Assembly (NCBI GenBank): GCA_027309085.1
Contig: DAIDDL010000025.1
Coordinates: 1 to 63,917 of the forward strand
DNA: 63,917 nt
Reading direction: 5' to 3'
Source of the DNA: Sulfobacillus sp.
GTDB taxonomy: Bacteria; Bacillota; Sulfobacillia; Sulfobacillales; Sulfobacillaceae
Position numbers and translations under genes: made by a program. Each line of letters opens with the position of its first letter. Position 1 is the stretch's first letter. Positions 702-26,076 of the stretch are shown here, one piece after another. The notes beneath the pieces were generated by a model. The model was not told the DNA's origin. It did not search any database and worked only from the letters and a program-made list of their open reading frames with translations.

Positions 702-1451
702 GTGGTACACCAGAAGCCGGCGGATTCCCCTGCATCGCACAGCTCCGCCAAAGCGAAATGGGTATTGGGACTAGCGGCCGCATCAGCCGTCGCGCTCAGC
801 GTGTTTTATGCAGCCAACTGGTCTGCGCTGACGCATCTCCAGCGAGCGGCCCATGCCCGGCTTCTCGCAGAAAAAGCGCCGTGGACTTCCCTGCCCCAGG
901 TGTCGCCCTGGTTTGTCAAGGCATTGATCGCAACCGAAGACCGGACCTTCTATACCAATTGGGGCATTTCTTTTCAGGGAACCGCCCGGGCCGCCTGGGT
1001 TGATGTGCAGACCGGACGCTTCACGCAAGGCGGCAGCACCATTACCCAGCAGCTCATCCGCAATCTGATGCTCTCGCCTGTCAAGACTATTCCCCGCAAG
1101 GTGACGGGTGTGCTGCTGTCCCTGATGGCCTCTGATTTGTACTCCAAGAAGAGGATCCTCACTTTATACGTCAACGAAGTCTATCTCGGCGACCACACCT
1201 ACGGCATTGGCCAGGCCTCCGAACATTATTTTGGCATCCCCGCCAGGCAGCTCACCCTCCCCGAGGCCTCCCTGCTGGCCGGCTTGCCGCAAGCGCCATC
1301 TCTTTACGACCCTCTGGTCCATTTCCGCTTGGCTAAAGAACGCCAGCAGGAGGTCCTCAACAGCATGGTGCAAGACCACATGTTGTCTCCAAGCCAAGCC
1401 AAGGCGGCCTACCGGGCCACTTTGCCTCTTAAACATGGCCAGAGCGCCTGA
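702..1451 (+). CDS. Stand-alone peptidoglycan glycosyltransferase (GT51)
   Basis: This 249-residue protein polymerises lipid II into glycan strands at the outer membrane face. After a membrane anchor (about residues 20-38) it has the GT51 motifs in order: ATEDRTFYTNWG with catalytic Glu79, QGGSTITQQL (110-118), KKRILTLYVNEVYLG (149-163) and LLAGLPQAPSLYDP (191-204). It ends soon after the glycosyltransferase fold, so there is no transpeptidase domain. The GTG start has a strong AGGAGGGG site. The C-terminal third closely resembles the same part of the class A PBP at 23497-26076, so it may derive from a bifunctional ancestor. It stands alone between mobile remnants and a gene-poor stretch. Confidence 0.85.
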   Translation: MVHQKPADSPASHSSAKAKWVLGLAAASAVALSVFYAANWSALTHLQRAAHARLLAEKAPWTSLPQVSPWFVKALIATEDRTFYTNWGISFQGTARAAWVDVQTGRFTQGGSTITQQLIRNLMLSPVKTIPRKVTGVLLSLMASDLYSKKRILTLYVNEVYLGDHTYGIGQASEHYFGIPARQLTLPEASLLAGLPQAPSLYDPLVHFRLAKERQQEVLNSMVQDHMLSPSQAKAAYRATLPLKHGQSA

Positions 1452-3101: not shown

Positions 3102-4508
3102 TCAGAGTATATATCGATTGATGTCAATATTCTCTGCGATCTTCGCCAGCCGCTGCTGCACATACGCCGAGGTGATCGGAATCGTCTGTCCCGTTAATTC
3201 CGGTGCCGAGAAATTCAGCTCTTCCAGCACTTTTTCCAAAATCGTGTGCAACCGCCGGGCCCCGATATTCTCGGTATCACGGTTCACCTGAAAGGCATAG
3301 CGGGCCATTTCCCATAAAGCCCCGTCATCAAACTCGACGACAACGCCCTCAGCTCCCAGCAAGGCTTGATATTGCTTGATGAGAGAGTGGCGGGGTTCCG
3401 TCAAAATCTTGTAGAAATCTTCCTCCGTCAGGGCGTTGAACTCCACCCGGATGGGAAACCGCCCCTGCAGTTCAGGAATGAGATCACTGGGCTTGGCCAC
3501 ATGAAAGGCTCCCGCGGCGATGAACAGGATATGGTCTGTCTTGACAGGCCCGTATTTCGTGTTGATGGTAGATCCCTCCACAATGGGGAGGATATCGCGC
3601 TGAACCCCTTCCCGTGATACATCCGGGCCGTGTCCCTCATGGCTGCTGGAGGCGATTTTGTCAAACTCATCAATAAAGATGATGCCTTCCTGCTCAGCCC
3701 GCCAAACTGCATCGGCGTGGGCGGCATCGGTATCGATCAGTTTTTGAGCCTCCTCCTGCGTGAGCACCTTGCGGGCTTCGGCCACCGTCATCTTCCGGCG
3801 CTTCGTCCTCTTGGGCAGGATGCCTGAAAACATCTCCCCCAAATTCATCTGGTTGTCCTCACTGCCCGGCATGTTGCCCATCATCGGCAACTGGGGGCCT
3901 GCATCCTCCACATCGATCTCCACAACCTCGTGCTCCATCGCCTTCATGCGAATTTTGTCGCGAACTTTACGCCGTTCCTCTTCAATGCGGTGGCGGTCTT
4001 CCACACTGACGCTGGAACTGGGTTTGTTTTGACGGGCGCCCCCAAACAGCGCTTCCAGAGGATTCACATTGGCCGACGGTTCCTCTGGGTAGGGCACCAG
4101 AGCGTCCACCAGCCGGTCCTCCGCAATGCGTTCCGCCCGGTCCTGAACCGCTTGCGAGCGCTCCTCCTTGACCATGCGCACACTGGTCTCCACCAAGTCG
4201 CGGACCATCGCATCCACGTCGCGGCCGACATACCCCACCTCGGTGAATTTAGTCGCTTCCACTTTGATGAACGGCACCCGCAGCAAGCGGGACAGTCTGC
4301 GGGCGACCTCTGTCTTGCCCACGCCGGTGGGCCCGATCATCAAGATATTTTTCGGCGTGATGTCCTCTTGCAGTTCCGGGTCAAGTTGGCTCCTGCGCCA
4401 CCGGTGCCGGAGCGCTATGGCTACCGCCCGCTTGGCGTCATCCTGCCCCACGATGTACCGGTCTAGTTCTTCGACAATCTTTCTTGGCGTCATCAACCTA
4501 TCGTCCAT
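3102..4508 (-). CDS. hslU: HslU (ClpY) ATPase subunit of the HslUV protease
   Basis: HslU is the AAA+ unfoldase that feeds substrates into HslV. The 468 residues show Walker A GPTGVGKT (59-66), the pore motif GYVGRD (92-97), an inserted I domain (about 110-245), Walker [12 protein letters not shown], and the C-terminal tail ending RYIL, which in this family docks into HslV. The ATG at 4508 follows an AGGGAGGG site and lies 14 bases after the hslV stop, so the two are co-transcribed. Confidence 0.97.
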
Positions 4509-4522
4509 TTCGGATGCCCTCC

Positions 4523-5071
4523 CTACCCCAGTGTCTCAACCGTCAAATGATGGTTGGTGTAAATGCAGATGTCCGCCGCGATGTCCAGGGAACGCCGCAC
4601 CACTTCGTCCAGCGCCATGGGCTGTTCCATTGACGTGAAAGCCCGGGCCGCTGCCAGCGCGTAACTCCCGCCGGAGCCGATCGCGGCAATAAAGTCATCG
4701 GGCTCGATGACCTCTCCCGTTCCGGAAAGAATGAAGAGGTGTTCTTGGTCCGCCACCAGCAGAAGGGCTTCCAGTTTGCCCAGCATCCGGTCTGTCCGCC
4801 ACTCCCGGGACAGAGACACGGCCGCCCGGGACAGATTGCCGTGGCTCTCCTCCAGCTTCCCCTCAAAATGCTCAAACAGGGTCAGCGCATCAGCCACCGA
4901 CCCGGCAAATCCCGCTAGCACTTTGCCATGGTACAGCCGCCGCACTTTTACCGCCGTGTGTTTCATGACAGTATTCTGTCCAAAGGTGACTTGCCCGTCC
5001 CCTCCTATAACCGCCTTGCCGTCCTTTACCATTCCCAGCACCGTAGTGCCGTGAAACTCCAACTCGGCCAC
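4523..5071 (-). CDS. hslV: HslV (ClpQ) proteolytic subunit
   Basis: HslV forms the proteasome-like double ring of the cytoplasmic HslUV protease. The 182-residue product has the family core [41 protein letters not shown] and [12 protein letters not shown]. The start is GTG behind AAGGAGG. Two threonines at residues 9-10 (HGTTVL) align with the catalytic N-terminal Thr, implying removal of eight residues; residue 2 is Ala, so activity from a Ser next to the initiator Met is not possible. It lies between xerC and hslU. Confidence 0.96.
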
Positions 5072-5107
5072 GTTCCATCCTCCTTGTTCCGCCCCACAGC
5101 CAGCGTA

Positions 5108-5989
5108 TCAGGCCCTGGGGTGTGCATGTTGATACACTGAGGCAATATGTTCCTGGGAGACCAGGGTGTACAGCTGGGTCGTGCGCAGCATGCTGTGTCC
5201 CAAAAGTTCTTGAATCACGCGCAGGTCGGCGCCATTCATCAGCATGTGGGTGGCAAAAGAATGGCGCAGCCAGTGCGGACTGACATTGCGCTGAATCGCC
5301 CCTCTCGCCAGCACCACCTTGATGATGCGCCGAACACTGCGTGTTGTGAGCCGCGTTCCCCGGTAGTTGAGGAAGACGGCCTGAGTGCCTTGCCGGGCCA
5401 GCGCTGGCCGGCCCCCGCGGAAATACTGCGCCAGAGCATCTTGGGCCTTAGATCCAAAAGGTACGATGCGCTGTTTCCCGCCCTTTCCCGTCACATGGAC
5501 AAAGGAGGTGTCCATGTCAATGTCCGGCAGGTTCAAGGATACCGCTTCCTGGCTGCGCAGTCCCGATCCATAAAGGATCTCCAGCAGTGCCCAGTTGCGC
5601 AGCCCCAGAGGTCCCGGCCGCAACCTGGCCTGCTCCATCAGGTCATGCGCCTCGTCCATCGTCAGGGTCCGCGGCAGCGCGGGGCGGAATCGGGGGGCCA
5701 AAAGGCGCTGCGCCGGATTGTCCTCCCTGAATCCCTGCCGCTGCGCGAACCGGTAAAAGCTGCGCACCACTGCGATCTTTCGGGCCACTGTCCGCGGTGA
5801 GAGGCCCCCCGCCAGAAGGGCTGCGCCCCACCGCCTCAAGTCCCTGCTCTCCAATTGTCCATAGGGTCCGGCAAACTCCGCCAGTTGCCTGAGATCTTGC
5901 GCGTAGGCCTGAATGGTGTGCTCTGACGCCTGCTCCACATTCAAAAGCGTCCTCAGATAGTAAGACACCCACTCGCTCTCAGGACGCAT
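5108..5989 (-). CDS. xerC: Tyrosine recombinase XerC
   Basis: XerC resolves chromosome dimers at dif with its partner XerD. The 293-residue protein has an N-terminal SAM-like core-binding domain (about 1-90) and the catalytic domain with the full set Arg145, Lys169, His239, Arg242, His265 and Tyr274 (motifs GLRSQE, GKGGK, HWLRHSFATH, LGHS, QLYT). Its ATG overlaps the end of trmFO by 11 bases. Position next to trmFO and hslV matches Bacillus, where this gene is codV/xerC. Confidence 0.95.
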   Translation of the reverse strand: MRPESEWVSYYLRTLLNVEQASEHTIQAYAQDLRQLAEFAGPYGQLESRDLRRWGAALLAGGLSPRTVARKIAVVRSFYRFAQRQGFREDNPAQRLLAPRFRPALPRTLTMDEAHDLMEQARLRPGPLGLRNWALLEILYGSGLRSQEAVSLNLPDIDMDTSFVHVTGKGGKQRIVPFGSKAQDALAQYFRGGRPALARQGTQAVFLNYRGTRLTTRSVRRIIKVVLARGAIQRNVSPHWLRHSFATHMLMNGADLRVIQELLGHSMLRTTQLYTLVSQEHIASVYQHAHPRA

Positions 5990-7325
5990 GGCGCGGCATC
6001 CTCTGGCCCATTTCCTCGACGTGCGCCGTCATCTTCGCCATCGCCCGCGTTCGCAGCCACTGCCTGCGGACTTTTTTTTCGTGAATGCTCTGAATGTCCG
6101 GAGGCAGCTCAAATAGGCCAAAATTGGCATTCATCGGCTGAAAGTGCTCGGGCGCTGTATGGGTAATATAATAAGCCAAAGCGCCCATCATTGTCTCGCG
6201 GGGAAAGGCTAGAGGCTGGAGGCCGGCCAGGTGGTCGGCCAAATGCACAGCGGCCATGATGCCCGTCGCCGCCGACTCCACGTACCCTTCCACCCCTGTC
6301 ATCTGCCCCGCAAACCATAAGTCTTCGCGCCAGCGGGTATTTAGAGTCGGGTGCAGCAGCGCTGGCGACTTCAGGTAGGTGTTGCGGTGCATCACCCCGT
6401 AGCGGGCGAATTCGGCGTGGGCCAGAGCAGGAATCATGCCCAGCACCCTCTTCTGTTCTCCCCAGCGGAGGTTGGTCTGAAAGCCCACCAAACTCATCAG
6501 CGACCCTACCGCGTTGTCTTGCCGCAACTGGACCACGGCATAAGGGCGGCGGCCGCCTTCAAACGGATTTTCCAAGCCTATAGGCTTCATCGGGCCGTAT
6601 AGCGGAGTTTTGAGACCTCTGCGCGCAATTTCCTCAATGGGCAGGCAACCCTCAAAAAATGCGCTGGACTCGAAGTCGTGTCCCGGGTGCTGCTCCGCCT
6701 CCACCAGCGCCGCATGAAACGCTTGGTACTCCGCCTTCGTCAGAGGACAGTTCAGATAGTCCCGGCTGCCTTCCCGGGATCCCCAAAAAGCATGGTCCAT
6801 GTCCACGCTGTCCGTCAGCACAATGGGAGCAGCCGCATCAAAAAAAGACAGCATGCTGTCCCCGAGCGCCTGCTGGATCGCAGCCGACAAAGCCTGGTGC
6901 GTCAGGGGGCCTGTGGCAATAATCGCAGGCCCGGGAGGAATCTCCGTGACGGCTTCTTGGTGCACAGTGATATTGGGATGGTCCACAATGCTTTGGGTGA
7001 CGGTTTTGCTAAAAATTTCACGGTCCACGGCCAGAGCCGAGCCGGCCGGAATCTGGGCGGCGGCCGCGGCCCGCAGCACCAGGGAATCAAAGAGCCGCAT
7101 TTCGTCTTTCAGCAGAGAGGCCGGAGCCGTACCCTGCGTGGAGCCCAGAGAGTTGGAACAGACCAATTCGGCGAAATCTCCGGTCGTGTGGGCAGGAGTC
7201 ATGGTGTGGGGGCGCATTTCGTATAAATGCACGGCAATTCCGCGCTGGGCCAGCTGCCACGCCGCTTCGGAACCGGCCAGGCCTCCGCCCACCACAACCG
7301 GCTCACTGGGCTTGCTCTTCTTCAT
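5979..7325 (-). CDS. trmFO: Folate-dependent tRNA (uracil-54-C5) methyltransferase TrmFO
   Basis: TrmFO makes ribothymidine at tRNA position 54 using methylene-tetrahydrofolate and FAD. The 448-residue protein starts with the FAD-binding VVVGGGLAGSEAAW (10-23), has the conserved ELVCSNSLGS with Cys56, FFEGCLPIEE, and the family C-terminal part with GLFELPP. The start ATG has GGAGGGG in front and overlaps the end of topA by 23 bases, so translation is probably coupled. Confidence 0.96.
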   Translation of the reverse strand: MKKSKPSEPVVVGGGLAGSEAAWQLAQRGIAVHLYEMRPHTMTPAHTTGDFAELVCSNSLGSTQGTAPASLLKDEMRLFDSLVLRAAAAAQIPAGSALAVDREIFSKTVTQSIVDHPNITVHQEAVTEIPPGPAIIATGPLTHQALSAAIQQALGDSMLSFFDAAAPIVLTDSVDMDHAFWGSREGSRDYLNCPLTKAEYQAFHAALVEAEQHPGHDFESSAFFEGCLPIEEIARRGLKTPLYGPMKPIGLENPFEGGRRPYAVVQLRQDNAVGSLMSLVGFQTNLRWGEQKRVLGMIPALAHAEFARYGVMHRNTYLKSPALLHPTLNTRWREDLWFAGQMTGVEGYVESAATGIMAAVHLADHLAGLQPLAFPRETMMGALAYYITHTAPEHFQPMNANFGLFELPPDIQSIHEKKVRRQWLRTRAMAKMTAHVEEMGQRMPRHAS

Positions 7326-22189: not shown

Positions 22190-22213
22190 AAATCACATGC
22201 AAAGCTGTGATTT
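22190..22213. repeat. Second inverted repeat, candidate operator or leader hairpin
   Basis: AAATCACA and TGTGATTT are perfect eight-base arms around an eight-base centre. It is ten bases from the preceding palindrome and 60 bases before the gene start. As RNA it would form a hairpin, so it could act at either level. Confidence 0.45.
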
Positions 22214-22272
22214 TGGCGAAAGCAAATTATCGCAACAAACCACACTACCGAAAACTCTGGAGGAGATTCTAC

Positions 22273-22830
22273 ATGGAAATATTGAACAAAATGGGGTATC
22301 TGATTCTTGATGACCCTTTCATCACGGCTGGCGATCTCGCGAAAAAACTTGGCTACGCCGAGGAAAAGACTGTGTACTACTGGCTGTCCAAGGAAAACTA
22401 CCCCGGCTTGCAGGCATTCAAGCGCGCCGTCATTGCCGGCCGCTACCTGCTGCCTGCGGCCAAGGCCCGGGAAACCCAGACGCATTACGGGCGCATTCCC
22501 ATCGTGCAGGGCTTCGCTTCGGACGGTTCGGTGGTGCTGACCTCTGAATCCCTATCGGACAGCCTGGTGGCCAATGCGCTGGGCAAATTCGCGTGGCGGT
22601 ATCAGGGACCAGACCAGGGGCCCGTGCAACACGGGGACTTGCTGTTCTTGGCCAAACTCGAGCGCAAGGACATGGCCAGGTGGGTCATTGCCGGGTCTCC
22701 CAGAACCCCTATAGTTCTGCTGAAGATCAAAATCGGCACTGAAGCGGTTTTTGTTCATCCTGAGACCCATGAACCCGCTAAAGTGCCGACCGAGTTGTAT
22801 AGAATCGTGCAAATCCTGCGCACGCTTTAA
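22273..22830 (+). CDS. LexA/S24-like regulator lacking the self-cleavage serine
   Basis: A 185-residue protein with an N-terminal helix-turn-helix-like part (ITAGDLAKKLGY, TVYYWLSKENYPGLQAFKRAV) and a C-terminal part resembling the S24 peptidase fold of LexA and phage repressors (YGRIPIVQGFASDG, then PVQHGDLLFLA, then WVIAGS and VLLKIKIG). The serine expected nine residues before the GD pair appears to be Gly, so self-cleavage is unlikely. The ATG at 22273 follows GGAGGAG. It lies behind two palindromes and before a strong hairpin, so it is probably monocistronic. Confidence 0.55.
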   Translation: MEILNKMGYLILDDPFITAGDLAKKLGYAEEKTVYYWLSKENYPGLQAFKRAVIAGRYLLPAAKARETQTHYGRIPIVQGFASDGSVVLTSESLSDSLVANALGKFAWRYQGPDQGPVQHGDLLFLAKLERKDMARWVIAGSPRTPIVLLKIKIGTEAVFVHPETHEPAKVPTELYRIVQILRTL

Positions 22831-23036: not shown

Positions 23037-23465
23037 ATGGTGTACTGCCGTCACTGCGGCGATCAGATTCCGGTCGATAGTGTGTTTTGTCCCAGTTGCG
23101 GCAAGAATTTGCTGCCTGAGGACCCTAATCTTGATGTGATGGCGCCCGTAGAACCCGCGGAGCCCGAGACGCCCGTGTCGCGGAGGGATTGGCTCCGCAG
23201 TGTGCGGAATATTCCCTGGCAGCGTTACCGAATGGCTGCGTCCGGCGTTATCCATCTGAACAACATTCGCCAGGTGCGGGTCACGTGGACGGTCTCACAG
23301 GTTCTTTTCACCGCGAGTGCCGCATTTTCTGTGGTGGGTTTTGTGTTGAGCCTAGCAGGCCGCCAACAAGGGCTTTCATGGATTTTGTTTGGTCTGGTTT
23401 TAGGACTGGGCGCCCTCTACACAAAAGATCCTCCCAACCGCACACCCCCCACACTAGGCGGATAA
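23037..23465 (+). CDS. Zinc-ribbon membrane protein
   Basis: A 142-residue protein of unknown function. It begins with a four-cysteine zinc ribbon (CRHC at 4-7, CPSC at 18-21), continues with an acidic Pro/Glu-rich linker, and ends with two hydrophobic membrane segments (about 84-106 and 112-128). The ATG has an AAGGCGAGGG site. It precedes by 31 bases a class A PBP that has the same type of zinc ribbon at its own N-terminus, so the two may act together at the membrane. Confidence 0.65.
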   Translation: MVYCRHCGDQIPVDSVFCPSCGKNLLPEDPNLDVMAPVEPAEPETPVSRRDWLRSVRNIPWQRYRMAASGVIHLNNIRQVRVTWTVSQVLFTASAAFSVVGFVLSLAGRQQGLSWILFGLVLGLGALYTKDPPNRTPPTLGG

Positions 23466-23496
23466 CTCGAGTATGCCAAGGAGATGACAAGATAGC

Positions 23497-26076
23497 GTGC
23501 GTTGCCCAAAATGTGGTCAGGACAATACTGCAGGGTCGGCATTTTGTCGGTTTTGCGGAAGCAAGCTGCCTGCCCCCGCAGACAAGCCCCGCCAGACCGC
23601 GCACAGCCCGGTTGCCAAAAAACCCTCCAAAGCCAGTTCGGGAGCCTCGTCTGCAAAACCCCGGCGCAAGGTGCGGTGGGGCCGTCTGGCGCTTTTGGCG
23701 GTGGCTGGAGTCATGGTGGCGGGGTTCGGATACGGAGGCTATATCGGCTACCAGGCATGGCAGACGCTCCCGTCGGTGCAGTCCATGGTCTCCCTGCAGG
23801 CGATGGGTCAAGACTCGGTCATTTATGATAAGTTCGGCCAGCCGGTAGCGCGCCTGCACGGCACCGTCAACCGTGTCAATGTGCCGCTGTCCGCCATTTC
23901 TCCCGATATGCAGCATGCTCTGGTCGCCATTGAGGACCATAGCTTTTATACCAACCCCGGGTTCGACATCACATCCATTGTCCGGGCGGCCCTCGTCGAT
24001 GTGATACATCACCACGCGATTCAGGGCGCCAGCACTCTCACCGAGCAGCTGGCCAAGGATCTGTACCTCAGCGACAAGAAAACCCTAGTACGCAAAGCCC
24101 AGGAATTTATGATCGGGCTGGAGCTTGCGCACACTTACTCCAAACAGCAAATTTTGGATATGTATTTAAATGAAGTATATCTAGGGGACGGCGCCAGCGG
24201 GGTCTATTCGGCGTCCAAGGCCTATTTCGACGAACTGCCGTCCCAATTGACCACCGCCCAAGCAGCGCTGTTGGCCGGGCTGCCCCAAGCGCCTTCGCTG
24301 TACGATCCGCTGGTGAACCTTAAACTGGCTAAGGCGCGGCAGCTGCAGGTTCTGGACGCCATGGCCAAGTACGGATATCTGAGTCAGGCCGCGGCGCACG
24401 CAGCTTATGCCGCGCCGCTCAATCTCCATCCCATGTCGGTGGACACGGCCAACAGCCAGATTTACCCGTACCCGTGGTACGTTGACAAAGTAATCCAGGT
24501 GCTGCAGCAACAGGGATTTTCCGGCACCCAAATTTTTGATGGCGGGCTGAAAATATACACGGCTCTAGACCCTGCGGTTTATAATATCGCGCAGAATGCT
24601 GTAGACCAGACCATGAACTATAATTTTGGCGTCTCCCATTCAGCCGACCCGACTTATCAGGCCACAGCCGTGGTGGAGGACCCCCATACCGGCGACATCC
24701 TCGCTGTCATCGGGGGCAGGACCTTCAGCCAGCCATTCATGGAGGATCTCGCCACGAATCCCTCGGTGCAGCGCTCGACGGGGTCATCTATCAAACCTCT
24801 GCTCGAATATACCCCCGCCATCGTCAAGGGGTACACCCAGATGTCGGTCATCCAGGACGTCCCTATTTTTCATGTCAACGGCCAGTGGTGGCCGCATAAT
24901 GACAACCATCTGTACCGGGGCTATTTGGACTTGCGGGATGCTCTGGCCATCTCCGACAACGACGTGGCGGTTCATCTGCTGAACGATATTGGATTGAATT
25001 ATGGCTACTACTTCGCCAAGAACAAGTTCGGGCTGCCCTTGACCACAGCCGACCTGCATGCTGGACTGGGCATTGCCATCGGCGGCTTGAAAGAAGGCTT
25101 CAATGTCATGGAAATGACTCAGGCCTACGCGACGTTCCCGAATGGCGGCGAGCGCATGTCGCCCATCTGGGTGACGAAAGTGGTCAATCCGGATGGTGCG
25201 GTGGTCTATCAGGATACCCCACACGGCACGGTCGAGTTTACCCCGCAGCAGGATTACGTCATGGAGAAAATGATGGAGCGGGTGATGAACCCCACCCCTA
25301 TTCCCAGCATTGGCCCCGGCAGCGGCGCCACCGGCATTAACTTGAATATCGGCCGCCCGGCTGCTGGCAAAACCGGCACCAACAATGGCGAGGCGGACGC
25401 GTGGTTTTTGGGATATACTCCCCAGCTTATGGTGGGAGTCTGGGAGGGCAACCGCAAAGGGGAATATCCCCAGCCGTCGACTCCCAACGGCCCCGCTTAC
25501 GGAGACGTCGCGGCTGGTCCCATTTGGCAATCGATCATGGAGCAAGTCGACACGCAAGAACACTTGCCCGTCCAGCATTTTCCGCGCCCCACCGGCATGG
25601 TGTATGTGCCTGATGTCAGCATCACTTCCGGAAAGATTGCGAGCCAGTACGCTCCGCCGCAGGATGTGGAAGGCGCGTGGTTTATCAAAGGCACCCAACC
25701 TACCACCATTGGCGACACCCACTACCCCGTCAAAGTGGTGGCCACAGACCCCAGTAAGCTGTGGCAGCAAGGATGCGGGGCTTACGTGACCACCGTGGCG
25801 CTACGTCGCGAATCAGACTGGCATCCCGGCGGTCCCTACATTTGGGACTCCCAGTACTGGGCTCCCACGGCCATGTGCACGCCGCGCGCCACTCCGTCGC
25901 CTTCCCAATCACCCTCCGCGTCGGCATCCCCTCCGGCGAGCTCGTCGCCATCCTCCACCAGTCCCTCCCAGTCGGCTTCCACGCCCTCCGCACCTGCGTC
26001 ATCCATTCCTCCGGCCCCGACTATTCCGAGTGCCAACCCCGCTCCCTCAGGCCAGAAGGTGGGTGCGGCACCCTAA
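23497..26076 (+). CDS. Class A penicillin-binding protein with N-terminal zinc ribbon
   Basis: A bifunctional peptidoglycan synthase of 859 residues. Order: zinc ribbon (CPKC 3-6, CRFC 17-20), basic linker, membrane anchor (63-85), GT51 glycosyltransferase (catalytic Glu146 in EDHSFYTNPG; QGASTLTEQL), transpeptidase with SxxK Ser430-Lys433, SDN 486-488 and KTG 625-627, and a Ser/Pro/Ala-rich tail (about 800-859). All catalytic motifs are present. A cytoplasmic zinc ribbon is not standard for this family. The GTG at 23497 is the only fitting start; its ribosome binding site AAGGAG is rather distant. Probably co-transcribed with the preceding zinc-ribbon gene. Confidence 0.9.
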   Translation: MRCPKCGQDNTAGSAFCRFCGSKLPAPADKPRQTAHSPVAKKPSKASSGASSAKPRRKVRWGRLALLAVAGVMVAGFGYGGYIGYQAWQTLPSVQSMVSLQAMGQDSVIYDKFGQPVARLHGTVNRVNVPLSAISPDMQHALVAIEDHSFYTNPGFDITSIVRAALVDVIHHHAIQGASTLTEQLAKDLYLSDKKTLVRKAQEFMIGLELAHTYSKQQILDMYLNEVYLGDGASGVYSASKAYFDELPSQLTTAQAALLAGLPQAPSLYDPLVNLKLAKARQLQVLDAMAKYGYLSQAAAHAAYAAPLNLHPMSVDTANSQIYPYPWYVDKVIQVLQQQGFSGTQIFDGGLKIYTALDPAVYNIAQNAVDQTMNYNFGVSHSADPTYQATAVVEDPHTGDILAVIGGRTFSQPFMEDLATNPSVQRSTGSSIKPLLEYTPAIVKGYTQMSVIQDVPIFHVNGQWWPHNDNHLYRGYLDLRDALAISDNDVAVHLLNDIGLNYGYYFAKNKFGLPLTTADLHAGLGIAIGGLKEGFNVMEMTQAYATFPNGGERMSPIWVTKVVNPDGAVVYQDTPHGTVEFTPQQDYVMEKMMERVMNPTPIPSIGPGSGATGINLNIGRPAAGKTGTNNGEADAWFLGYTPQLMVGVWEGNRKGEYPQPSTPNGPAYGDVAAGPIWQSIMEQVDTQEHLPVQHFPRPTGMVYVPDVSITSGKIASQYAPPQDVEGAWFIKGTQPTTIGDTHYPVKVVATDPSKLWQQGCGAYVTTVALRRESDWHPGGPYIWDSQYWAPTAMCTPRATPSPSQSPSASASPPASSSPSSTSPSQSASTPSAPASSIPPAPTIPSANPAPSGQKVGAAP

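Follow-up and report, generated by a model that had tools for sequence, protein, structure and literature searches.

The window, a stretch of 63,917 nucleotides from a Sulfobacillus genome, carries two adjacent genes on its forward strand, one for a small zinc-ribbon membrane protein (ORF1) and one for a class A penicillin-binding protein (PBP), both of which begin with a CxxC-x10-CxxC ribbon (Table 1). Both ribbons score above the cut-off of 25 bits for the Pfam family Zn_Ribbon_1 (PF13240), and these two are among only five matches above that cut-off in the 4.5 Mb genome. Since the ribbon and the gene pair also recur in relatives, neither is due to chance. The ribbon, linker, membrane helix, glycosyltransferase and transpeptidase of the PBP form a single reading frame with a conserved start. 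The protein contains both the GT51 and the transpeptidase domain with all catalytic motifs (SxxK, SxN and KTG included) and is assigned to class A only: at 485.7 bits against a cut-off of 508.75 it marginally misses the PBP1A family TIGR02074 (NCBIfam), and we do not claim membership of that subfamily. The closest named relative is Sulfobacillus thermotolerans, at about 86% identity. A full-length AlphaFold model of the PBP, based on 19 sequences, had a mean pLDDT of 38, too poor for use in a fold search.

Table 1. Positions of the genes and features discussed in the text. Coordinates refer to the window except in the last three rows, which name other loci.
Feature	Position	Strand	Remarks
ORF1, zinc-ribbon membrane protein	23037..23465	+	142 aa; ribbon, variable linker, two-helix hairpin
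ORF1 ribbon YCRHCGDQIPVDSVFCPSCGKNL	23043..23111	+	residues 3-25; PF13240 30.5 bits
Shine-Dalgarno AAGGAGATGA of the PBP gene	23478..23487	+	from start contexts of 45 orthologs
Class A penicillin-binding protein	23497..26076	+	GTG start, 859 aa
PBP N-terminal zinc ribbon CPKCGQDNTAGSAFCRFCGSKL	23503..23568	+	residues 3-24; PF13240 26.3 bits
Flexible, fast-evolving linker of PBP	23569..23664	+	residues 25-56; pN/pS 0.66; length variable
Basic RRKVRWGR motif and transmembrane helix of PBP	23665..23754	+	residues 57-86
GT51 glycosyltransferase domain of PBP	23839..24363	+	PF00912 193 bits; EDHSF, GASTLTEQLAK, RKAQE, KQQILDMYLN
Transpeptidase domain of PBP	24664..25425	+	PF00905 61 bits; SSIK, SDN, KTGT
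ORF1-like gene, family f2	L119 4820-5218	-	unlinked to PBP
ORF1-like gene, family f2	L120 3772-4602	-	unlinked to PBP
ORF1-like gene, family f2	L121 4342-4740	-	unlinked to PBP

The pair sits in what we take, from reading the sequences, to be a housekeeping block, with smc and ftsY beside it and rnc, fabF and acpP-like genes after it. Among these neighbours we saw no linked regulator of metal or redox response. A gene for a short HTH-like protein (22207-22830, forward strand) lies directly upstream of ORF1 or of the ribbon PBP in the loci that we viewed from the same order (Sulfobacillus and its kin), and is retained upstream of the PBP also in loci without ORF1. Relatives suggest that its true start is an ATG near 22273 (MEILNKMGYLILDDPF), and its product is a possible regulator of the PBP operon. 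A monofunctional GT51 gene is found about 22 kb upstream of the pair (702-1451, forward strand).

Translation start of the PBP and coupling to ORF1

The earlier note on this DNA had read the ribbon as the N-terminus of the PBP, a reading that a PBP start downstream of the ribbon would overturn. The start was instead located just before the ribbon, at GTG 23497 with AAGGAGATGA upstream. A GTG, TTG or ATG stands two codons ahead of the first ribbon cysteine in 45 distinct PBP orthologs, preceded in most of them by a purine-rich ribosome-binding sequence. A start 3' of the ribbon is ruled out by this conservation of start codon and Shine-Dalgarno across orthologs, and the GTG at 23497 is secure as far as the sequence can tell. 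In many relatives the PBP start lies one base past the stop of ORF1, and the C-terminus of ORF1 (ending ..KEMTD or ..EMRD before the stop codon) is encoded by the PBP's own Shine-Dalgarno. In Sulfobacillus, the genus of the window, the two genes are now about 31 bases apart and the Shine-Dalgarno signal has been kept.

Distribution of the ribbon PBP

The earlier note had proposed looking for the ribbon-PBP architecture in related genomes. Using a profile of the N-terminal region, we found the PBP ribbon in 42 of 42 genomes of the order, with the match beginning at the ribbon. The same profile returned no credible case in 112 other genomes of the class, and none among the matches listed for 395 genomes of the phylum outside the order. 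Because a profile search could miss a ribbon placed behind an unusual linker, we also inspected 80 distinct PBPs of genomes outside the order directly at their N-termini (one of them edge-truncated) and met no ribbon. Restriction of the ribbon PBP to this order thus holds within the phylum sample. Four genomes of other orders gave apparent partial matches to the ribbon (G125, G144, G114, G150), which were rejected on account of stop codons or because no ribbon was present where the locus was read (G125, G114, G144). A PBP from another order of the class (G057:C66, L060/L126), cut by the contig edge, has one CxxC (CRRCGA) before its membrane helix, which may be half a ribbon.

The RRxRWGR juxtamembrane motif is common to many ribbonless PBPs of other orders, which argues that ribbon and linker were added in front of an existing PBP. 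Judged from these comparisons, they are most likely an addition to an ordinary class A PBP that was then retained. In several sister genera another class A PBP is encoded 16-22 kb away from the one with the ribbon, and such copies are found among L086-L091 and L190. The ribbon is kept in the duplicated copies L086-L088 and L190, degenerate in L089 and absent in L090 and L091; the other class A PBP encoded in the genome of the window likewise has no ribbon. Catalysis as such therefore does not need it.

Constraint on the PBP ribbon

Among eight members of the genus, pN/pS was 0.063 for the ribbon, 0.66 for the linker, 0.11 for the glycosyltransferase and 0.09 for the transpeptidase domain; the ribbon value is approximate, being drawn from 22 codons only with a synonymous rate that is also lowered, perhaps by translation-start constraints. 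The ribbon evolves more slowly than the catalytic domains (0.06 versus about 0.10) while the linker drifts, and these rates indicate strong purifying selection on the ribbon across the genus members compared. All 45 orthologs share the four cysteines, N10, R18 and G21, and their linkers vary in length from 7 to 45 residues. Constant key residues beside a linker of variable length are what one expects of a folded domain that is flexibly tethered. N10 and R18, which are invariant and yet not ligands, suggest a recognition surface.

ORF1 and its partnership with the PBP

ORF1 has predicted helices at residues 86-106 and 112-129, and its structural model (pLDDT about 77 for the ribbon, 66 on average) supports a ribbon plus helices only. 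The cysteine ligands are invariant in 20 of 20 ORF1 proteins. A profile search placed full-length ORF1 orthologs in 28 of the 42 genomes of the order, and every clear one (28 of 28) lies directly upstream of the PBP; the pair is thus present in most of the order, where its absence in all relatives would have spoken against the earlier note. In the remaining 14 genomes (genera g4, g7, g9 and g10, and family f2) the PBP has its ribbon but no ORF1 next to it, which makes ORF1 dispensable over evolution. A quick tree agrees with ORF1 having been gained or lost only a few times. Taken from gene linkage and coupling, a partnership of ORF1 and PBP is well supported.

Two further arrangements were observed. 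Three genomes of genus g12 in family f2 carry an ORF1-like gene away from the PBP, ahead of an asparagine-synthase-like gene (Table 1). In a Chloroflexi MAG (L026), a ribbonless class A PBP (5088-7313, forward strand) stands beside a divergently transcribed gene for a ribbon and two helices (4224-4760, reverse strand) that resembles ORF1 (36 bits against the ORF1 profile); this pairing could be chance or a wider association of PBPs with ribbon proteins.

The earlier note had further argued that matching ribbons on the two proteins point to a complex. The ribbons of ORF1 and PBP are alike at 9 of 22 residues, and each is alike to unrelated ribbons of the same genome at 8-11 of 22. Their invariant residues also differ, with P12, D14, S15 and P19 in ORF1 and N10 and R18 in the PBP, which suggests that they belong to two subfamilies of ribbon with distinct surfaces. 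The argument from matching ribbons is therefore weak, and gene coupling is better evidence of partnership than ribbon likeness. What stands of the earlier description is an intact class A PBP that begins with a CxxC ribbon, presumably on the cytoplasmic side, and a translationally coupled ribbon membrane protein upstream of it in most relatives. The proposed complex gains from linkage and translational coupling, but not from the ribbons themselves nor from the 14 genomes that lack an adjacent ORF1.

Comparison with known systems

Like members of the PBP1A family (TIGR02074), the PBP has complete glycosyltransferase and transpeptidase motifs, a single N-terminal transmembrane helix and a basic juxtamembrane tail; it differs from them by an added cytoplasmic zinc ribbon and linker. 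ORF1 is typical in layout of small Zn_Ribbon_1 (PF13240) membrane proteins; the literature searched contains no account of such a ribbon fused to a peptidoglycan synthase. Our search of the literature on zinc ribbons with penicillin-binding proteins and on Sulfobacillus PBPs found no paper describing the ribbon-PBP architecture. The architecture is confirmed as real and conserved, a variant on known class A PBPs that is undescribed in that literature.

In other Firmicutes, cytoplasmic mini-domains of class A PBPs bind GpsB through short arginine-motif tails (PMC6335420). These mini-domains (B. subtilis PBP1, L. monocytogenes PBPA1, S. pneumoniae PBP2a) are N-terminal cytoplasmic tails, and docking is what we propose here too; they are, however, short arginine-motif peptides, whereas the tail of the PBP in the Sulfobacillus order is a Cys4 ribbon. 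An SRxxR(R/K)-like GpsB motif (pattern [ST]R..[RKY][RK]) was found in the cytoplasmic tails of none of the 45 orthologs. A similar layout is known from ZitP of Caulobacter, which has a cytoplasmic zinc finger at its N-terminus, joined to a membrane helix, and with this finger binds the scaffold protein PopZ (PMC5182065). ZitP differs in belonging to another finger family, in having no enzyme attached and in being alphaproteobacterial, and no MJ0042-type (ZitP) finger domain was present among Pfam hits up to E 0.1.

Possible roles of the ribbon

We tentatively favour a docking role, in which the tethered ribbon brings the synthase to a partner in the cytoplasm or at the membrane, and ORF1 is an accessory in the membrane, dedicated to this synthase yet dispensable. 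A bifunctional peptidoglycan synthase of the normal kind would have acquired an N-terminal ribbon on a flexible cytoplasmic tether in the order's ancestor. The four ribbon cysteines would bind zinc, and the ribbon would dock on a partner, cytoplasmic or membrane-associated, that puts the synthase in place or activates it, in the role that short GpsB-binding tails play in other Firmicute PBPs. ORF1 would assist this synthase from the membrane, being translated together with the PBP and perhaps reaching the same partner by its own ribbon. The genome has a single DivIVA/GpsB-family protein, whose gene adjoins a sepF-like gene, which makes it a candidate partner and nothing more. Against the docking reading count the many bacterial membrane proteins that begin with a small ribbon, for the most part without an explanation, the 14 genomes with no ORF1 beside the PBP, and the duplicated PBP copies in which the ribbon is lost or degraded.

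Three other readings are less likely. The ribbon might simply cap the N-terminus and help the protein to fold, stay stable or insert into the membrane, with no specific partner involved, as would be allowed by such ribbons at the start of unrelated membrane proteins of the same genome (L101, L103); we consider this somewhat unlikely, given the invariance of N10 and R18 beyond the ligands, the slower change of the ribbon compared with the catalytic domains, and its absence from the other class A PBP of that genome. Direct contact of ORF1 and PBP through their ribbons, as an obligate regulatory pair and hence the complex of the earlier note, would fit their tight linkage, translational coupling and unbroken adjacency, but is unlikely where the two ribbons resemble each other no more than they do unrelated ones, differ in their invariant residues, and part company in a third of the order, where the PBP ribbon persists with no ORF1 beside it. 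The ribbon could also be a metal or redox sensor, with zinc loss or cysteine oxidation switching wall synthesis off or on. The four invariant cysteines and the acidophilic, metal-rich habitat of Sulfobacillus speak for such a switch, which we nevertheless regard as quite improbable, with no linked metal or redox regulator seen in the neighbourhood and the same kind of ribbon occurring in non-acidophiles too.

The docking reading can be carried further, to a zinc-dependent cytoplasmic adaptor system formed by the ribbon PBP and ORF1 for peptidoglycan synthesis in the order, replacing GpsB-type recruitment; this would place a folded metal-binding docking domain inside a class A PBP and add a co-translated membrane co-adaptor, and taken as a whole we hold it to be rather doubtful. 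How class A PBPs are switched and placed from within the cytoplasm is known for only a few model Firmicutes, where it works by way of short peptide tails. An order-wide ribbon that is more constrained than the active-site domains provides a defined handle for finding a different cytoplasmic control partner, and the ribbon PBP and ORF1 suggest that wall synthesis is steered here in a manner not described so far.
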